Shown piece by piece: positions 2,071-11,524 of a stretch of DNA of 11,707 nucleotides. The stretch is taken from positions 1-11,707 of the forward strand of contig JAPHUI010000067.1 in NCBI GenBank assembly GCA_026193755.1, in the 5' to 3' direction. The DNA is from Ignavibacteriaceae bacterium. Its GTDB lineage: Bacteria > Bacteroidota > Ignavibacteria > Ignavibacteriales > Ignavibacteriaceae. A program made the translations under genes and the position numbers. Each line of letters opens with the position of its first letter. Positions within the stretch are counted from its first letter, which is position 1. Below the pieces are notes generated by a model. That model was not told where the DNA came from and did not search any database. It saw nothing but the letters and a program-made list of their open reading frames with translations.

Positions 2071-5000
2071 ATGAATAGAATAACGACTGTTCTCCTTTTA
2101 CTTCTGTTATTACCGACATTAACTCTTGCCGGTACTACAGGAAAATTGAAAGGCAAGGTAACCGACAATGGAACGGGTGAGGTTCTGGTTGGAGCAAATG
2201 TAATTGTTCAGGGCACCTCCTTTGGAGCTGCTACCGATATCAACGGTGATTACACTATTACTAATCTCGATGCCGGTGTATATACAGTGAAATGTTCATA
2301 TATCGGCTATCAAGCATTCACCGTCTCGAATGTCCGTATAAATGCGGACCTTACCACGGAGTTAAACTTTCAACTGACTGCTGAAGGTGTACAGGTAGGC
2401 ACTGTTGAAGTTGTAGCTTTGAAACCCCTATTAAATAAAAGTAATACTAATGCCCAAAGAATAACAACGGCTGATGATATTGCAGCGCTTCCTGTAAGGG
2501 GCATTGAAAATATTTTGGCTCTTACTCCGGGCGTTGTTTTACAGGATAAATCAATTTACGTCCGTGGTGGTCGTCAGGATGAAGTAGGTTATTATGTTGA
2601 AGGAACAAATGTTACTAACCCCTATTTAGGCGGCACCAGTTTAAATTTTTCACAGGATGCTTTGGAAGAAGTTTCAGTACAGGCAGGCGGATATACTGCA
2701 GAATTTGGTGGTGCAAATGCTGGTATTATTCGCGGACAAATTAAATCAGGCACACCTAACTGGAAAGCAAGTGTAGAATATATTACAGATAATATTGGAT
2801 TTCAGGGAAGTGATCAACGCTTTAGCGGCGATAAGAATTGGTTAGGATCTTACTGGTATGGTTATACAGATTTTATTGCTACAGTAAGCGGACCCATTTT
2901 TACCCCTAAGGTAAAATTCTTTGGACTATTTGAAAATAATTTTCTAAATGATCAGGGACCACAACCTTATCCGGGTATTAACCTTGGTGTAGTCTCCGAT
3001 CCGAATGTTACACCCTTCACTGAAGTTGATGTTACTTATCCTGCCGGGGCAGTATTCAAAAATTCCTTACAATTATATTCTGGAACCGGTTCACTAACTT
3101 TTGATTTTAACCCGCTGCTTTTCAGACTGGTTGGTTCTTATTCCAGTACTGATACCTGGGAAGGGAATGGTTATGTTGATGCAGCGAATGGTCAGGCCGG
3201 TTATTCAGGTAACATTTTGAGAATACTTGATTTAGATAGGATCGGAAAGATAGATCAGACAAGTGGTGTGTTTAACCTTAAGATGACTCATATTTTAAAT
3301 TCGAACACATATTATGAACTGAATGGTGGCTATGCCTTTGATACTGACCACAGATACGATCCTTATCTAAAGGATGATTTTATAGGTTATGGTGACAGTG
3401 TTGCTAATGCAAATGTTGGCTGGACCTGGGTAAGACGGGAAGGTGAACCAACAGGTCAATATCGTACACCCTCACCATATCAGGTGTATACTTTTTCTTT
3501 CAACGCTCCGGGTGATGTAATATCACCGTACCTAAGGTCAAAAAGCGAAAATCTTAATTTTAGTGCTGCCTTCTCATCACAAGTAACTAAGGAACATTCA
3601 ATTAAAGTTGGTGGCGAATTACAGACATATACAATTCGCAATTTTGGAATTACAAACAGAAATGTAACTCCAATTGCAGGTCGTCTGAATGATCCTAATA
3701 GAACCCAGTCTTATAGAGAGATTATGACCAGTTTAGGAGTTAATAACTACGGATACGATTTGGAGGGTAATGTTTATGATGGAGAAGATAACTATGATAC
3801 AGGACAGATTGGACCAAAACAACCTTTATTTGGTGGCGCATATATCCAGGATAAAATGGAATTTCAAAACCTGATTATTAATGCTGGATTACGGTATGAT
3901 TATATTAATACGGATAACATATCTTTTATTAATCCACTACATCCTGAAGAATCAATTGATTTTAATACACAGGAAGTTAAACCGGAAGGTTTGGTAGAAA
4001 CCCCGGCCTTTAGTTCAGTAAGTCCGCGTTTAGGTTTTTCTTTCCCGATTACTGATGTAACAGTATTCCATGCTCAGTATGGTAAGTTTGTTCAACAAAC
4101 CAGGTTGAGAGATATTTATCTAGGTATGTATGCTATATCTTTTAATTTGCAGGGCAAGTTCTTTATCGGTACCCCTGTTGGCTATAATGTAAGACCAACA
4201 AGAACAACACAGTATGAAATCGGATTTACACAGCAAATTGGTGATTTTGCTTCATTCGATATCACAGGCTATTACAAAGACATACAGGATCAAGTTGTCT
4301 ATCGTCAGCAGAAGACGGGTTCAGCAGGCAATCCATCTCCATATCCTGCATATGCTTTATTAACAAATGGTGATTTCGCTACTACTAAAGGTGTTGAACT
4401 CTCCTTCAATATGCGTCGTGTGGAGAGATTTCTTATTAACGCTTCACTTTCATTCCAGGATGCCCGTGGAACCGGATCATATCCTAACGGACAAGCTGGT
4501 ATAGTTGGTGCACCACTTGATGGAGTTACTGTATTTGAACCGCAATATGTTACACCTCTTGACTATAACAAACCTTTTACCGGAAATCTTAATATCGATT
4601 ATCGCTTTGGTAAAGATGATGGTGGTCCAATACTTCAGGAATTAGGTGCATCAATACTGTTTCTTTTTGGAAGTGGTCATCCTTATACTACCGGCGAAGG
4701 AAAAGGAAATACACAGGGAAGTCTTGAAGGAGATGCACGTTTCAGGGCACCTACGGAACCATTGAATTCATCTTTAACACCTTCAACATTCCAGGTTGAT
4801 CTGAGAGTTGACAAAACAGTTAATCTGTTTGATGTATTAAATATGAATCTCTATGTATACGTTATTAACCTTTTTGATACTAAAATTGTTAAGAATGTAT
4901 TTCTCAGAACAGGTTCCCCAACAGATGATGGCTATTTAAGCCAATATGACCTTGGCGGACAATTGGCAGAACAAAACGGACCTGATTTTGTTGCGTTATA

Positions 5001-5130
5001 CAATGCAATCAATATTGATTATTTCCAGGCTTATCAAAGAGCTGGCGGACAAAACCAGGGCGCATCCGGATCTTCATTTTTATGGGGCCCGCCCCGTCAG
5101 ATCAGGTTTGGAATTAGATTGGAGTATTAA
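2071..5130 (+). CDS. TonB-dependent receptor with carboxypeptidase-regulatory-like N-terminal domain
   Basis: This 1019-residue outer-membrane protein should be an energised gated channel that imports or binds an unidentified ligand using TonB-ExbBD. A signal peptide (MNRITTVLLL... to TLTLA, residues 1-20) precedes a carboxypeptidase-regulatory-like beta-sandwich at about 24-105 (KLKGKVTDNGTGEVLVGANV, then DINGDYTITNLDAGVYTVKC). The plug follows at about 117-228, with ALPVRGIENILALTPGV, YVRGGRQDEVGYYVEG (VRGG at 164-167) and EEVSVQAGGYTAEFGG. The remainder is barrel, including NAGLRYDYI, SPRLGFSFPI and the terminal GPPRQIRFGIRLEY. Length and architecture suit the family. AGGAG lies 7 bases before the ATG. 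It is the first gene of a likely operon, 52 bases ahead of the secreted protein. No SusD homologue is adjacent, so SusC is not a justified name. Confidence 0.92.
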   Translation: MNRITTVLLLLLLLPTLTLAGTTGKLKGKVTDNGTGEVLVGANVIVQGTSFGAATDINGDYTITNLDAGVYTVKCSYIGYQAFTVSNVRINADLTTELNFQLTAEGVQVGTVEVVALKPLLNKSNTNAQRITTADDIAALPVRGIENILALTPGVVLQDKSIYVRGGRQDEVGYYVEGTNVTNPYLGGTSLNFSQDALEEVSVQAGGYTAEFGGANAGIIRGQIKSGTPNWKASVEYITDNIGFQGSDQRFSGDKNWLGSYWYGYTDFIATVSGPIFTPKVKFFGLFENNFLNDQGPQPYPGINLGVVSDPNVTPFTEVDVTYPAGAVFKNSLQLYSGTGSLTFDFNPLLFRLVGSYSSTDTWEGNGYVDAANGQAGYSGNILRILDLDRIGKIDQTSGVFNLKMTHILNSNTYYELNGGYAFDTDHRYDPYLKDDFIGYGDSVANANVGWTWVRREGEPTGQYRTPSPYQVYTFSFNAPGDVISPYLRSKSENLNFSAAFSSQVTKEHSIKVGGELQTYTIRNFGITNRNVTPIAGRLNDPNRTQSYREIMTSLGVNNYGYDLEGNVYDGEDNYDTGQIGPKQPLFGGAYIQDKMEFQNLIINAGLRYDYINTDNISFINPLHPEESIDFNTQEVKPEGLVETPAFSSVSPRLGFSFPITDVTVFHAQYGKFVQQTRLRDIYLGMYAISFNLQGKFFIGTPVGYNVRPTRTTQYEIGFTQQIGDFASFDITGYYKDIQDQVVYRQQKTGSAGNPSPYPAYALLTNGDFATTKGVELSFNMRRVERFLINASLSFQDARGTGSYPNGQAGIVGAPLDGVTVFEPQYVTPLDYNKPFTGNLNIDYRFGKDDGGPILQELGASILFLFGSGHPYTTGEGKGNTQGSLEGDARFRAPTEPLNSSLTPSTFQVDLRVDKTVNLFDVLNMNLYVYVINLFDTKIVKNVFLRTGSPTDDGYLSQYDLGGQLAEQNGPDFVALYNAINIDYFQAYQRAGGQNQGASGSSFLWGPPRQIRFGIRLEY

Positions 5131-5182: not shown

Positions 5183-8100
5183 ATGAGATTAAGAACAATT
5201 AATTATTTTGTTGTTTTTGTGGTGAGCCTGCTTTTTATTTCTCAATCGGTTGTTAATGCCGAGGGTAATGAAAAGGGGAAAAAATCACTGCAAAAAGTTC
5301 AGCAACAGGTTCCTGTTTCGTACCTGGACATAAATAACATATTTACCGTTTTGAGAAACAATGGAATCTCGGATATAGATGTAAATCAGCAGAATTCAGG
5401 ACTGGTTTTTCCTAAAGGAAGCGGTAAAACTGCTGCTTTTACTTCAGGTTTACTCTGGGGTGCAAGAATACCCGGTGACCCTCAGGTAAGAGTTGGCGGT
5501 ACTGCTTATGCTACAGGACTTCAGCCCGGAGCTATACTGGCAGATGGAACGGCTGATGACCCAACTTTGGAAAAGTACAGGATTTACAGGGTTAGACCGG
5601 ATATTTATCCGGGTGGACCCGAAGTAGACCTTACTAACGATGCAACGTATGAACTTACCTCTGCCTCAGCTATTCGTGCTCAATATGAAACGGATTGGAC
5701 AGAGTGGCCGGCCGATCTAGGAGCACCATTTAATGATGTTGATGAAAATGGTGTTTATGATCCAACAGTAGATATTCCCGGAGTCCCAGGCGCTGATCAA
5801 ACTCTTTGGTGCATAACAAATGATCTGAACCCAACTAATACAGCCGATTTGTATGGTGCTTCTCCCATGGGTATTGAAGCACAAATTACTTATTGGGCTT
5901 ATAATCAAACGGGCGCACTTGGAAATATGTTTTTTAGAAAATATTTATTGGTTAATAAAGGAGCCCAGCAAGACACAATAACGGATATGTATGTCTCAAT
6001 GTGGTCTGATATTGATGATGGAAATGCAGGCGATGACTTTGTTGGTGTCGATACGGTTCTTAGTTTGCAATATTGTTATAATGCAAGCCCAACAGATGCA
6101 ACATATTCACCGCTTCCACCACCTGCAATTGGTTTTGACTTTTTCCAGGGTCCTTTGGTAAACGGTGTTGCAGGTGAAGATAGAAATAAAAATGGTATAG
6201 ACGATGCCATGGATTATGGTATTTTCAAAGGACAGGTAGTAGGACCTGGTAAGATTAACCTGCCAATGACTGCCGCTTATTATTTTGCAAATGGTGATCC
6301 TAATATTGGTGATCCGCCACAGGGAGATTTGGATGGCTCGACTCAATTCTACAATTTCTTCCAGGGTAAGTTTGGTTTATCCGGTGCGACTTTTACAGAC
6401 CTCAGTACAGGAGACCCTACAACTTACGCTCTGAACGGAGATCCATTATCTGGTACGGGTTGGTTGGATGGAGTACAGCTTCCACCTGGTGACAGACGAC
6501 AGGGAAGTTCTTCCGGTCCATTTACTCTTGCACCCGGTGATACTCAGGAAGTTGTTGTGGCTGAAATTTGTGCCGGCGCCCTTCCGAGTGTTAATAATAT
6601 CGCTGCAATCGGACTTTTAAAATATTATGATGGTTTGGCACAAGTAGCTTACGATAACTTCTTCGAGCTACCTCCAAATCCTGCTTTACCTAACGTGGAT
6701 GTTGTTGAACTTCCTAATCAGATCAATCTTGATTGGGGAGAAAATGTGGAGAGCATAAGTGAAACTGAAGGTTATGATATTATATTCAATGAGGAAAATT
6801 ATAAGTTCCAGGGATACAATGTTTACCAGCTTCCAAGTCAGAGTGCCTCTAAAGAGGAAGGAAGACTGATAGCTACTTTTGATGTACAGGATAATTTTCT
6901 GGTTATCATTGGTAAAGACTTCGACGCTACTACAGGCCAGATAGTATTGAGACCTCAGCAATTGGGCAACAATACAGGTATAAGTCGTTATTTAGAGATA
7001 ACTACTGATATTTTTACTGGCACACCTCTTATTAATGGGATAAAATATTATTTTGCTGTTACAGCATACGCAGTTTTACAAAGTTATGATAAAGATGTAC
7101 CAATTGATGAGTTCCCATTAATTACAAATGTTGAAAATGTTATCAGCATTTTAACTGTTGTTCCTCGTAGTCAAAATCCTGAAGAAATGTACACACCAAT
7201 TGGAGAGTTTACTGATATAACTCACGAAGGAACCGGAGACGGTGGACCAATACCTTATGTTGTTAATCCAATTGCATTAACAGGAGATGAATACGAGATT
7301 AATTTCACTCAGCGTCAGGAAATCAGAGATCCGAACGGTGATTGGGTACCCGCAAGCACTGTTATGAGGAAATCAGGTTTTGATGGTCCGGACACACTTA
7401 CTGGTTCATCCATTGACATTGCTGCTGTTTACGGACCACAGGCAGGCACATTGGAACTGCAATTTTCCTTAGACCTGGTATCTGTTGATTACGATTGGGC
7501 AGATGGTATCACGCTAACATTCCCTGCAGGAGTAACAATTCTTAGTGTGCCGGCTTTTGAGGCTGGTAATGGATCGATTTCTCCAGAGGTTGTTGGAAAT
7601 GTAATTAATATGGGTCTCGTCAATCATGAGTACACTCAGGATGGTGCGTTTACCGGTGGTGAAGAATGGAGCGTAATCGTGCAAGCGAGTGTTCCTCTCT
7701 CAGTTGACTGGATTATTTATGATGACGGATATGGCGGCGGCCCTGTTGATGCATCAGGTACAACATCCGTAACTAGTGTCGGTAATGCATCAAGATTAGC
7801 TAAATACTGGAACTTACTGAATGTAACAACTAGTGAGTTAAAACTTGAAAATCAGGGTCTTCTTCAAGGTACTATTCCATTTCCTCCACGCGATGATATT
7901 CCCGCAAATCAATTGGTAAACGTTCCACCAAGTTTACAGCCTATTGTTGATGGTTTCAGGATAGGCGTAGATGGAGGATATGCTGCCCCTACAACTATAT
8001 TTAGTTTAGAATTAAATGGTGCAAATTTAAGAATTAACAGAAGTAGCGCAGACTATCAAATGACTGATTTTACGTATTTTGGTTACGCAGATGGTTTTGC

Positions 8101-9004
8101 AGCAACCTCATTACCTTTATATGGAGGTATTGGGGGTACCACTGTTATCGAGGATCTACAACAGGATTATGAGCTGAGATGGACTGGTGAAACAGGTGAT
8201 ACTACAATAAATGGAAAAACTGTTGTTATAACAATATCCGGTGGTTCCATCGCGACCCTCATTGGTGCCAGCAATTATGATTTGGGAGATCATCCCTTAA
8301 ATCCGAATCCCGGTTCAACTGATCCATTCACTATAAGAATTCCTTTTGAGGTTTGGAATATTGATACTGACGAACAGGTAAACTTGCTGGTTTATGATAG
8401 AAATGCTGCTGCAGAAAATGACCCCTCTGTAGATGGTTTTAGGGTTTGGAATACACAAGATAGAATGTATACATGGACGGTTAATAACTCATATACTCCT
8501 ACTGTCATAGATCCTAATTCACAGGAAGTTGCTGATAATGCAACCTGGAATTGGGTATTCTTTCACTCCTACTTTACAACGGACGATGTTATAAAAGTTA
8601 GTTATGCCAATCCAATGCAGGTAGGTATTGATAAGTATACCTTTAGTCCAGGAGCAGCCACTTTCGCAAATACAGATAAAGCAAAGGATGAAATAAATAA
8701 AATAAATGTGTTCCCGAATCCATATTATGGAGTAAACTCCGAGGAGCTGAATAAGTATAACAGGTTTGTGACATTTAGTCACTTACCAACTAAAGCAACA
8801 ATTAGAATCTTTAATCTTGCAGGTGTTCTTGTAAAAACCATTGAAAAAGATAACATGGATCAATTCCAGAGATGGGATCTTGCAAATCAGAATGGATTAC
8901 CCGTTGCAAGCGGATTATATATAGCATATATCGATATGCCGGATCTTGGATCGACCAAAAATTCTGAAGGTGGCAATAATTCAAGAAGAACAAATTCTAG
9001 ATAG
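5183..9004 (+). CDS. Giant secreted protein with fibronectin-III-like region and (frameshifted) T9SS type A sorting domain
   Basis: The 1273-residue product has a signal peptide (to about residue 26, VVNA) and no long later hydrophobic segment, so it should be exported. Residues about 48-500 form a conserved-looking block (NNGISDIDV, SGLVFPKGSGKTAAFTSG, GAPFNDVDENG, PMGIEAQITYWAYN, MWSDIDDGNAGDDFVGVDT) that I recall from large secreted Ignavibacteria proteins of unknown function. DVDENGVYD (185-193) and DRNKNGIDD (333-341) look like calcium-binding loops. A fibronectin-III-like region lies at about 509-640 (FQGYNVYQLPSQ, KYYFAVTAYA). A T9SS type A domain starts at V1176 (VFPNPYYG, ATIRIFNLAGVLVKT, GLPVASGLYIAYID). 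The final strand is lost to an apparent extra A at 8957-8961; the as-read tail NSEGGNNSRRTNSR is atypical. AGGAG at 5167-5171 is 11 bases before the ATG. Surface exposure is likely if the sorting domain works; ligand and activity are unknown. Confidence 0.88.
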   Translation: MRLRTINYFVVFVVSLLFISQSVVNAEGNEKGKKSLQKVQQQVPVSYLDINNIFTVLRNNGISDIDVNQQNSGLVFPKGSGKTAAFTSGLLWGARIPGDPQVRVGGTAYATGLQPGAILADGTADDPTLEKYRIYRVRPDIYPGGPEVDLTNDATYELTSASAIRAQYETDWTEWPADLGAPFNDVDENGVYDPTVDIPGVPGADQTLWCITNDLNPTNTADLYGASPMGIEAQITYWAYNQTGALGNMFFRKYLLVNKGAQQDTITDMYVSMWSDIDDGNAGDDFVGVDTVLSLQYCYNASPTDATYSPLPPPAIGFDFFQGPLVNGVAGEDRNKNGIDDAMDYGIFKGQVVGPGKINLPMTAAYYFANGDPNIGDPPQGDLDGSTQFYNFFQGKFGLSGATFTDLSTGDPTTYALNGDPLSGTGWLDGVQLPPGDRRQGSSSGPFTLAPGDTQEVVVAEICAGALPSVNNIAAIGLLKYYDGLAQVAYDNFFELPPNPALPNVDVVELPNQINLDWGENVESISETEGYDIIFNEENYKFQGYNVYQLPSQSASKEEGRLIATFDVQDNFLVIIGKDFDATTGQIVLRPQQLGNNTGISRYLEITTDIFTGTPLINGIKYYFAVTAYAVLQSYDKDVPIDEFPLITNVENVISILTVVPRSQNPEEMYTPIGEFTDITHEGTGDGGPIPYVVNPIALTGDEYEINFTQRQEIRDPNGDWVPASTVMRKSGFDGPDTLTGSSIDIAAVYGPQAGTLELQFSLDLVSVDYDWADGITLTFPAGVTILSVPAFEAGNGSISPEVVGNVINMGLVNHEYTQDGAFTGGEEWSVIVQASVPLSVDWIIYDDGYGGGPVDASGTTSVTSVGNASRLAKYWNLLNVTTSELKLENQGLLQGTIPFPPRDDIPANQLVNVPPSLQPIVDGFRIGVDGGYAAPTTIFSLELNGANLRINRSSADYQMTDFTYFGYADGFAATSLPLYGGIGGTTVIEDLQQDYELRWTGETGDTTINGKTVVITISGGSIATLIGASNYDLGDHPLNPNPGSTDPFTIRIPFEVWNIDTDEQVNLLVYDRNAAAENDPSVDGFRVWNTQDRMYTWTVNNSYTPTVIDPNSQEVADNATWNWVFFHSYFTTDDVIKVSYANPMQVGIDKYTFSPGAATFANTDKAKDEINKINVFPNPYYGVNSEELNKYNRFVTFSHLPTKATIRIFNLAGVLVKTIEKDNMDQFQRWDLANQNGLPVASGLYIAYIDMPDLGSTKNSEGGNNSRRTNSR
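8957..8961 (+). other. Apparent single-base frameshift in an A5 run within the T9SS sorting domain
   Basis: The codons read GGA TCG ACC AAA AAT, giving GSTKN and then a polar tail ending at 9004. Omitting one A gives GSTK followed by ILKVAIIQEEQILDRF and a TAA at 9009-9011. That alternative ending is hydrophobic then charged, like the normal last strand of type A sorting domains in related proteins, while the as-read tail is not. The restored stop remains upstream of the next gene's AGGAG at 9029-9033. A sequencing or assembly error in the homopolymer is the simplest cause; a real mutation or recoding is possible. Confidence 0.75.
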
Positions 9005-9038
9005 ATTCTAAATAAAATCAAGTTTAATAGGAGTAAAA

Positions 9039-10067
9039 ATGAAAAAATTAATTAGTTTATTAACAGTAGTTTTTGCCCTCCTGCTTATGCTTGATGTTGC
9101 ATATGCCGGAGGTGGAAACAGGACAGGAACGGCTGGAGCGGCAGAGCTTCTTATCCCTGTAGGTCCCCGCGGAATTGCTATGGGTGAGGCCAATGTTGCA
9201 ACATCTTTTGGTTTAGAAGCATTATTCTGGAACCCTGCAGGTGTAGCAAAAATGGAAAACTCTTCACAAGTAATGTTCTCACATATGTCTTATATAGCAG
9301 ATATAGGTGTTGAATATGGTGCCGTTGCAGCAAATTTTGAAGGATTTGGTGTTGTGGCTTTAAGTGTTAAAGGTTTGTCTGTTGGTGATATACCAGTAAC
9401 GACCACACAAAGTCCCGATGGTACAGGTGCTACCTTCTCTCCACAGATGCTTGTAGCCGGATTGTGCTATTCGCGTCAATTAACTGACAGAATTTCGGTT
9501 GGATTAACCGGTAATTTCATAAGCGAAACAATGGGAGATGCTTCTGCTAGCGGTGTGGCATTCGATGTTGGTGTCATTTACGATAATCTCGCAGATTTAA
9601 ATGGCCTAAGCCTCGGAGTTGTGTTGAAGAATATCGGTACCCAAATGACATATTCGGGACCGGGTCTTCTTACTCTTGCTGAGGATCAGGGACTCAATCG
9701 TCCTCCACAATATTATAGAATTTCTGCTGCAGCTTTCGAGTTACCTTCTAACTTCCAGTTAGCAGCGGGTTACAGACCGGTTCTGGATGAGATGAATTCT
9801 CTGCAGTTCAGCGGTATTTACCAGAACAACAACTTTTCTGGTGATGAGGCGAAACTAGGTGCGGAATATGGTTATAATAACATGTTCTTTATTCGAGGTG
9901 GTTATCAGTTTGCGATGCAGGAATCTGATAATTACATCTACGGTTTCACCGCAGGTGCTGGTATAAATTATGATATCGAAGGATTCGGTATTAGGATAGA
10001 TTATGCCTTCAGAGACACTAAGTACTTTGACGGCAGCCACATATTTGCTCTGACATTAGGATTCTAA
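9039..10067 (+). CDS. PorV/PorQ-family outer-membrane protein
   Basis: This 342-residue protein has a signal peptide (MKKLISLLTVVFALLLMLDVAYA, cleavage before GGGNRTG) and the family's hallmark start of the mature region at about residues 40-72 (VGPRGIAMGEANVATSFG, then ALFWNPAGVAKM). The remainder is a FadL-like barrel pattern with the repeated strands LVAGLCYSRQL, ISVGLTGNFIS and FFIRGGYQFA, ending in aromatic F (HIFALTLGF) as outer-membrane barrels do. PorV in Porphyromonas binds T9SS sorting domains and brings cargo to the PorU sortase complex; PorQ is a related barrel. Placement directly after a T9SS cargo gene suggests a shuttle or surface partner for that cargo, which is inference. AGGAG at 9029-9033 lies 5 bases before the ATG. 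It is the last gene of the operon, followed by a strong terminator. Confidence 0.85.
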   Translation: MKKLISLLTVVFALLLMLDVAYAGGGNRTGTAGAAELLIPVGPRGIAMGEANVATSFGLEALFWNPAGVAKMENSSQVMFSHMSYIADIGVEYGAVAANFEGFGVVALSVKGLSVGDIPVTTTQSPDGTGATFSPQMLVAGLCYSRQLTDRISVGLTGNFISETMGDASASGVAFDVGVIYDNLADLNGLSLGVVLKNIGTQMTYSGPGLLTLAEDQGLNRPPQYYRISAAAFELPSNFQLAAGYRPVLDEMNSLQFSGIYQNNNFSGDEAKLGAEYGYNNMFFIRGGYQFAMQESDNYIYGFTAGAGINYDIEGFGIRIDYAFRDTKYFDGSHIFALTLGF

Positions 10068-10171: not shown

Positions 10172-11524
10172 TCAGTGACGGGGATTATCCTCTTTATTAG
10201 AAGATATTTTTCTTTTTCTTTCGTTGATTGAATGAAACGAGAAAGGTGTTAAATATATGTTCGAAGCCAATCTGCCAGCAACAAAAGCTATTGTTGCTGC
10301 CACCGCACCTACCAGATTCATGTAATGAACAAAAATAATAAGTGAGAGAACGATTGTTAAAAATTCGGTTACCGTTCCTATTGTAATTGGCTTGGTATTT
10401 TTGGTGGCGACTAATACACCTCTTTGAATACTTATTAAAACAGTTAAAGCCGGGAAGAAAAACATAATCATAAGTGGCAGCCTGGCAAAATCTGTAAGTG
10501 AAATGGATAACCCGGATACGGTTTTAAACCAAAAATCAGCCAGAGGGGTAAAGGCAAACAGACCTAATAACGAAACCAGAATTCCTGCAAGAATCAATGC
10601 AAAATTAAAAAGAATATTAAACCCTTCTTTCTTTTCTCCAATAAGTGCAATCATAACTTCCTGATAAGATAGACCAAGCGCTCTGAAGACAAACACAAAA
10701 GATGTAACTACGGGTAGAACAGCAAGTGATTCTAAAGCCAACTTACTTTGTCCTACAAAAAATGTAACTAATGGCTGCACACCCAATCCGATCAATGAAG
10801 TTAAAGCTAAAGGATAGTAAAATTTTGATATCTCTCTATAAGTAAGTAATGGTTGAGTAGAATCCACAGTCAACTTTATTTTTTTTATTATCCCTTTTAC
10901 CATAATTCTGCTTGCTGCTGCTTCCATTGTTACACCAATTGAAAGTGATGCTGCACCGATGACAACACCATCAAAATCTCCCCAGATGTATAGCCCTAAC
11001 GCAGACAAAGACATTGCAGACAGTCTGGTAATTGTTCCATAAGCGACCCTCCTTGTGAGGTTATTTCTAATTAATAGTCCCTGGTAAAAACGTCGGTAGC
11101 CAATTGCCCCTGGCCAGGGAATTAAAATTATTGTGGCAATATGGGTTAGTTGAGAAACTTCTGCTGGTAATCCAATCAAATCTTCGGTAATAAAATAGAA
11201 TAGATTCGGTATTACAAGTATTATCATTAAAAGTGTAAGTAATCCGTTAGCAGTGTATGTATAGTTTCTTAGTTTTTTAAAAGAATGCTCGTCTCTCACA
11301 AGGGCAACTGAGGCACTCATAATCATAATTATAGGTGCCTCAATTATTAAGGCCAGTGAATATGCTACACCGTATGCTGCGAGATTAAATTTTGGTTCGG
11401 GCGATCTTGCTATTAACGCTGCGAGGTATGGTCCCTCGACGGACATCATTAACCACGTAGCGGCAAGAGGTAACCAGAAGTAAAATATTTTTTTGTATGT
11501 AAGTTGAGTTGAAGAGTCAGACAT
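10172..11524 (-). CDS. MATE-like (MOP superfamily) 12-segment membrane transporter
   Basis: This 450-residue inner-membrane protein shows about twelve hydrophobic segments in two halves. The halves begin alike: TYKKIFYFWLPLAAT near residue 9 and TYREISKFYYPLALT near residue 228, the two-fold repeat expected of MATE/MOP transporters, where each half forms a six-helix bundle. MATE members export drugs or other small molecules using H+ or Na+; relatives flip lipid-linked sugars. The wording of some segments (EGPYLAALIARSPEP, LAAYGVAYSLALIIEAP) also recalls the ANKH pyrophosphate/ATP-export family, so substrate cannot be assigned. The C-terminus is a charged cytosolic-type tail (NERKRKISSNKEDN). 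No clear Shine-Dalgarno precedes the ATG, and the nearest alternatives (M26, M27) would cut the first segment. It is convergent to the receptor operon and appears functionally separate from it. Confidence 0.75.
   Translation of the reverse strand: MSDSSTQLTYKKIFYFWLPLAATWLMMSVEGPYLAALIARSPEPKFNLAAYGVAYSLALIIEAPIIMIMSASVALVRDEHSFKKLRNYTYTANGLLTLLMIILVIPNLFYFITEDLIGLPAEVSQLTHIATIILIPWPGAIGYRRFYQGLLIRNNLTRRVAYGTITRLSAMSLSALGLYIWGDFDGVVIGAASLSIGVTMEAAASRIMVKGIIKKIKLTVDSTQPLLTYREISKFYYPLALTSLIGLGVQPLVTFFVGQSKLALESLAVLPVVTSFVFVFRALGLSYQEVMIALIGEKKEGFNILFNFALILAGILVSLLGLFAFTPLADFWFKTVSGLSISLTDFARLPLMIMFFFPALTVLISIQRGVLVATKNTKPITIGTVTEFLTIVLSLIIFVHYMNLVGAVAATIAFVAGRLASNIYLTPFSFHSINERKRKISSNKEDNPRH

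Follow-up and report, generated by a model that had tools for sequence, protein, structure and literature searches.

A frame break in the sorting domain of a putative T9SS cargo gene of Ignavibacteria, most likely a contig error, beside a PorV-family barrel gene

Does the frameshift near the end of a large cargo-like gene, which changes the last residues of its C-terminal sorting domain, reflect biology or a fault in the contig? The window, i.e., the whole stretch of 11,707 nucleotides analysed here, is one entire contig (C139) of a 2.54-Mb MAG of 476 contigs that is 84% complete (G000), and its relatives among named records are Ignavibacteria. The cargo ORF (5183..9004, plus strand) encodes a large, T9SS-cargo-like protein of 1273 aa as read, with a start that looks by eye like a signal peptide. 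Upstream of it lie the genes for a DUF6029 outer-membrane-like protein (59-1687, listed on the minus strand) and a TonB-dependent receptor-like protein (2071..5130, plus strand; PF13715 and PF07715), the latter 100% identical across 1019 aa to entry P0241, which is found on three contigs, the window's own possibly counted. The next gene downstream encodes a PorV/PorQ-family outer-membrane barrel (9039..10067, plus strand; NF033709, 202.8 bits with a cut-off of 90; PF19572, 38.2 bits with a cut-off of 27), followed by a membrane protein of 450 aa with a weak ANKH match (10172-11524, minus strand).

The frameshift is truly present in the letters of the window. The sorting-type C-terminal domain extends over 8708..8959 (plus strand) as far as the frameshift, with a TIGR04183 match at 8708-8932 (23.5 bits) and a match to the C-terminal part of the PorZ model. 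The frame is lost at an A5 run (8957..8961, plus strand), and the window protein diverges at residue 1260 from P0003, an entry of the searched protein collection. As read, the cargo frame closes with ...GSTKNSEGGNNSRRTNSR and stops at 9002-9004, the polar tail NSEGGNNSRRTNSR and its stop occupying 8960..9004 (plus strand). The frame from 8958 gives KILKVAIIQEEQILDRF and a stop at 9009-9011 (8958..9011 in all, plus strand), the same ending as in P0003 and P0005. A sequence-only reading of this DNA had given the same run, restored frame and stop, all of which were confirmed on the sequence; it was also right that a -1 shift meets a TGA within three codons, as direct reading from 8959 gives AAA TTC TGA. 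Its view that so coherent an ending was not due to chance was borne out as well. The alternative-frame tail equals the end of P0003, residue for residue, which rules out chance coherence of the other frame; since the first 1259 residues of P0003 are also those of the window protein, the agreement is far beyond chance.

We searched the protein collection with window residues 1100-1273, obtained 1388 proteins at E<=0.001 and inspected the best 120 of them. P0003 (1275 aa; found on five contigs, the longest of 20053) matches the window protein exactly over residues 1-1259, reads ILKVAIIQEEQILDRF thereafter and ends in KILKVAIIQEEQILDRF. The window's form (P0001) was found on one contig versus five for the form of P0003. 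P0002, on one contig and cut by the contig end, reads through the site in frame, and P0010 is cut before it. When the window's own entry and two cut ones were set aside from the 120, all of the other complete proteins (117/117 among the best 120 of 1388 matches) had the tail in frame, 108 by a strict pattern and nine by eye with a different residue before ILK. The polar tail was present in 0/119 other proteins listed among these best 120 of 1388; it was rejected as a natural variant, with 0/117 other complete proteins carrying it.

Alignment of 52 sequences (46 listed proteins and six loci) showed one K and one Q of the tail to be invariant in 52/52 rows, with F or Y as the last residue in 52/52. 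The tail was also in frame at 37/42 related loci, 32 with tail and body in one ORF and five through a tblastn segment that runs to the last residue; these 42 are not fully independent, as a few records are duplicated and two pairs (L016/L034 and L024/L036) have the same sequence in the compared parts. At the remaining five (L016, L034, L040, L044 and L045), homology ends between residues 320 and 708, before the tail. The homologues thus keep the restored ending in the comparison with relatives that had been proposed as a check. Three relatives (L023, L029 and L031) have an A5 run at the same place yet remain in frame, because the preceding codon ends in A. No near-identical copy was found in a scan of named genomes from which the records closest to the window's genome were possibly left out (best 57%). 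One cargo homologue (L011, G024:C15:159336-163073) has a single TGA within an otherwise matching frame.

We propose that the gene would be an ordinary Ignavibacteria T9SS-cargo gene, intact elsewhere, whereas this one contig carries a frame-breaking base at the A5 run, which is absent from otherwise identical protein copies. Its likeliest source would be a contig error, i.e., a read error or the assembler's consensus of a minor variant. We regard this account as probable, although not strongly so, and infer the error itself; the frameshift is most likely not biology. Sequencing error had been named earlier as the likeliest cause, and the finding of the frameshifted form on this contig only supports that view.

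The strongest competitor is a real mutation that abolishes function, either present in a minor strain or fixed only recently in the lineage, with the cargo made and not exported. It would have to be very recent, since no protein difference from P0003 precedes the frameshift, and this identity is itself compatible with a real mutation. The contig count (one frameshifted, five intact) speaks against it and for an error, but P0002 and P0003 possibly derive from repeated assembly of one sample, and the independence of the five contigs is accordingly uncertain. The A5 run is short for a sequencing slip, which speaks against a contig error. The background of frame splits bears on the same choice. 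We compared 61 stretches of the window's own assembly (487 kb in total, partly masked) with proteins encoded in 1.2 Mb of G002, a congeneric genome in a single contig, and found no other frame-split gene within the 233.6 kb covered by G002 proteins. The scan recovered 70/121 implanted shifts and is blind to shifts as near the gene end as that of the cargo; with this sensitivity of 58%, splits up to about one per 45 kb remain possible (95% upper bound, our own arithmetic). An error-prone assembly was unsupported as an explanation, and the low background counts against a contig error and for a real mutation. A real mutation at low frequency would also yield the same data as a contig error. Weighing these points, we find that the data somewhat favour a contig error over a real private mutation, which we consider possible, at about half the likelihood of an error. 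Run in reverse, the scan gave four candidates on G002. Three of these candidate frame splits cluster within about 2 kb at one locus (L104, G002:C1, about 23500-26600), one of them on a distant match, and the gene there is perhaps decaying.

Phase variation, in which slippage at the run toggles surface display, had also been suggested. The frame change does fall inside an export signal, and both forms are present in the protein collection. However, A5 runs are short and common (the window has 21 A5 and six A6 runs), the off form was found in 0/117 other complete proteins among the best 120 of 1388, and the identical copies and 37 relatives are in frame. Sibling domains also argue against such a switch: 58/59 other sorting domains examined in the MAG, a subset of its 134 TIGR04183 matches chosen on the contigs retrieved, end intact, so there is no sign of a switched-off cohort of domains. 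We consider a switch very improbable. Programmed recoding, in which a +1 frameshift or transcriptional slippage would yield both tails, is the least credible reading of all, for the one point in its favour is the coherent tail in the +1 frame, whereas the otherwise identical P0003 and the 37 relatives that reach the tail encode it without a shift, and the in-frame A5 runs of L023, L029 and L031 indicate that the run itself forces none. The in-frame tail in 117/117 listed proteins and 37/42 loci disfavours recoding and natural tail variation alike.

Matches to only the C-terminal half of sorting domains had raised the suspicion of MAG-wide frameshifting in these domains. This was rejected: the orphan halves on contigs C381, C105 (4611) and C61 (844), which have no in-frame gene upstream, are cuts at contig edges or short relics, not full genes with shifted ends. 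Several other contigs of the MAG begin or finish inside sorting domains, as is expected from repeated sequence. The one exception among the 59 examined domains (G000:C2:6511-6714) lies in an ORF of 119 aa, with NKIKNLPDRVTNKEGRNC in place of the last strand and stop; it may be another broken domain or a relic.

If the letters are taken at face value, the product would lose the last strand of the domain and the conserved terminal extension; the lost piece is placed as the last strand by analogy with published cargo structures and by alignment. Removal of two C-terminal residues from RgpB led to periplasmic retention, whereas removal of one did not; PPAD tolerated the loss of two residues but not four; and C-terminal extension of T9SS cargoes was tolerated (PMC11285876). 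Secretion defects are reported for cargoes shortened at the C-terminus by 2 to 4 residues (PMC11285876, PMC4804311). The as-read protein lacks all 16 residues past 1259, including the invariant K and Q, and loss of export is predicted on this basis; by analogy with the RgpB and PPAD truncations it would probably stay in the periplasm. The published truncations thus lend support to the secretion defect that the sequence-only reading had predicted. As for the machinery, SprA_N was found in G002 and G013 and not in the 84% complete G000, and Peptidase_C25 proteins were found in all three alike. If the mutation is real, it would be an ordinary loss of function. Annotation would yield a protein with an odd C-terminus that has lost its sorting signal, and this is not to be taken for a surface-display switch.

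The domain had been described as a typical type A sorting domain. "Typical" claims too much, as the TIGR04183 score of the whole protein stays below the cut-off of 23 even when intact. This model had been proposed as a check on both endings and gave 19.9 bits for the as-read protein and 20.5 for the intact P0003; in the genome-wide scan, the window's domain reached 23.5 bits, barely above the cut-off. The same scan gave 134 matches in the MAG, 121 above the cut-off and the top one at 59.8 bits, placing the window's domain near the bottom of these; those that were read out mostly have KKMILLK-like terminal strands. The best NCBIfam match was to the PorZ model in its C-terminal part (NF052228; 33.2 bits for the as-read ending and 41.8 for the restored one, cut-off 260), and the intact tail extends this match to the last position of the profile (757/757). 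No Pfam model matched the sorting domain of the cargo at E<=0.001, type B sorting-domain models in NCBIfam or Pfam gave no match to the cargo at the same threshold, and solved structures gave no meaningful match (best E 0.13). The last strand of type A domains (motif E) is absent from the C-terminus as read, and the strand that closes P0003 has another motif. Judged by sequence, the domain is of a divergent, PorV-neighbouring class and not textbook type A. A conserved extension beyond the last strand occurs in two subfamilies, the window family (QEEQILDRF-like) and the G000:C397 family (MPQKQIQRF); other PorV-neighbouring domains have no extension, and many of them end in GKFAIIK-like strands.

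The barrel at 9039-10067 belongs to the PorV branch, as its 202.8 bits with the PorV_fam model compare with 27.6 for the PorP/SprF family, below the cut-off of 90.55. Of the 42 related loci, 37 extend to the cargo end, and 34 of these have a PorV-like ORF directly after the cargo; of the other three, L026 and L033 end 18 and 102 bases past the cargo, and L039 has no match in 6.3 kb. Among the PorV-family loci of the genomes G000, G002 and G013 (L203-L232), 27 matches are above the cut-off, of which 17 lie directly after a sorting-domain gene, three are second in a tandem pair behind one and seven are neither. Most of them (20/27) are thus placed behind a class of sorting-domain proteins with poor scores in the standard model. 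Two of the 17 resemble what we take to be the known PorU-PorV order, judging from the upstream sequence and Peptidase_C25 matches just before. In G000, 6/7 PorV-family matches, one of them a fragment at a contig edge, are so placed, C79 being the exception; the PorV-neighbouring domains there have TIGR04183 scores of 23.5, 16.6 and 15.9 bits or are unlisted (C90:7007 and C442:164), and 0/7 PorV-family genes directly follow a high-scoring sorting domain. Domain and barrel distances correlated over 18 pairs (r of 0.92; 0 of 20000 permutations as high), and the correlation was 0.74 across 129 distant comparisons. This correlation of sequence distances shows long co-inheritance of cargo and barrel as a unit, not binding specificity.

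These arrangements suggest that PorV-family genes adjoining divergent sorting-domain genes form dedicated cargo-shuttle pairs. Tentatively, and with somewhat less than even confidence, we propose a distinct Ignavibacteria T9SS signal class, each member with its own PorV-family shuttle downstream, in which the lost ending would be read by the barrel, the frameshift would uncouple the two, and cargo and barrel would form a PorV-branch equivalent of type B/SprF pairs. A review already speculates on cognate PorV-like barrels for PorZ/PorQ (PMC10202324). Such pairs in Ignavibacteria were not found in the literature searched, which covered few subscription papers. If the pairs are dedicated, recognition of all type A signals by PorV, as stated in PMC12618676, would have to be qualified for this group. 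The pairing of divergent sorting domains with PorV-family genes came as a by-product, yet it is of more interest than the frameshift and merits separate study.

Compared with known systems, the domain resembles type A (TIGR04183, PF18962) in its C-terminal position, its PNP start, its G(L/V)Y strand and a final hydrophobic strand of the kind required for export in studied cargoes. It differs in its sub-cut-off score, in its ending, where a conserved extension follows the last strand in place of KKMILLK, and in the PorV-family gene immediately downstream of the cargo. The C-terminal domain of PorZ (NF052228) is its best NCBIfam match, and the intact match runs to the profile end; however, this domain alone matches, its 41.8 bits lying below the equivalog cut-off (260), and the cargo is not a PorZ. 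Unlike in programmed frameshift genes, a shift site with an out-of-frame tail is not conserved, as the tail is in frame at 37/42 loci and the other five stop short. Nearest among known arrangements is that of type B cargo, as described for SprB/SprF of F. johnsoniae, in which the gene for the cognate PorP/SprF shuttle follows (PMC12618676, PMC9143113). The window is similar in that a PorV-like barrel gene directly follows the cargo gene, but the barrel falls in the PorV/PorQ branch (NF033709), and the cargo matches no type B model at E<=0.001.
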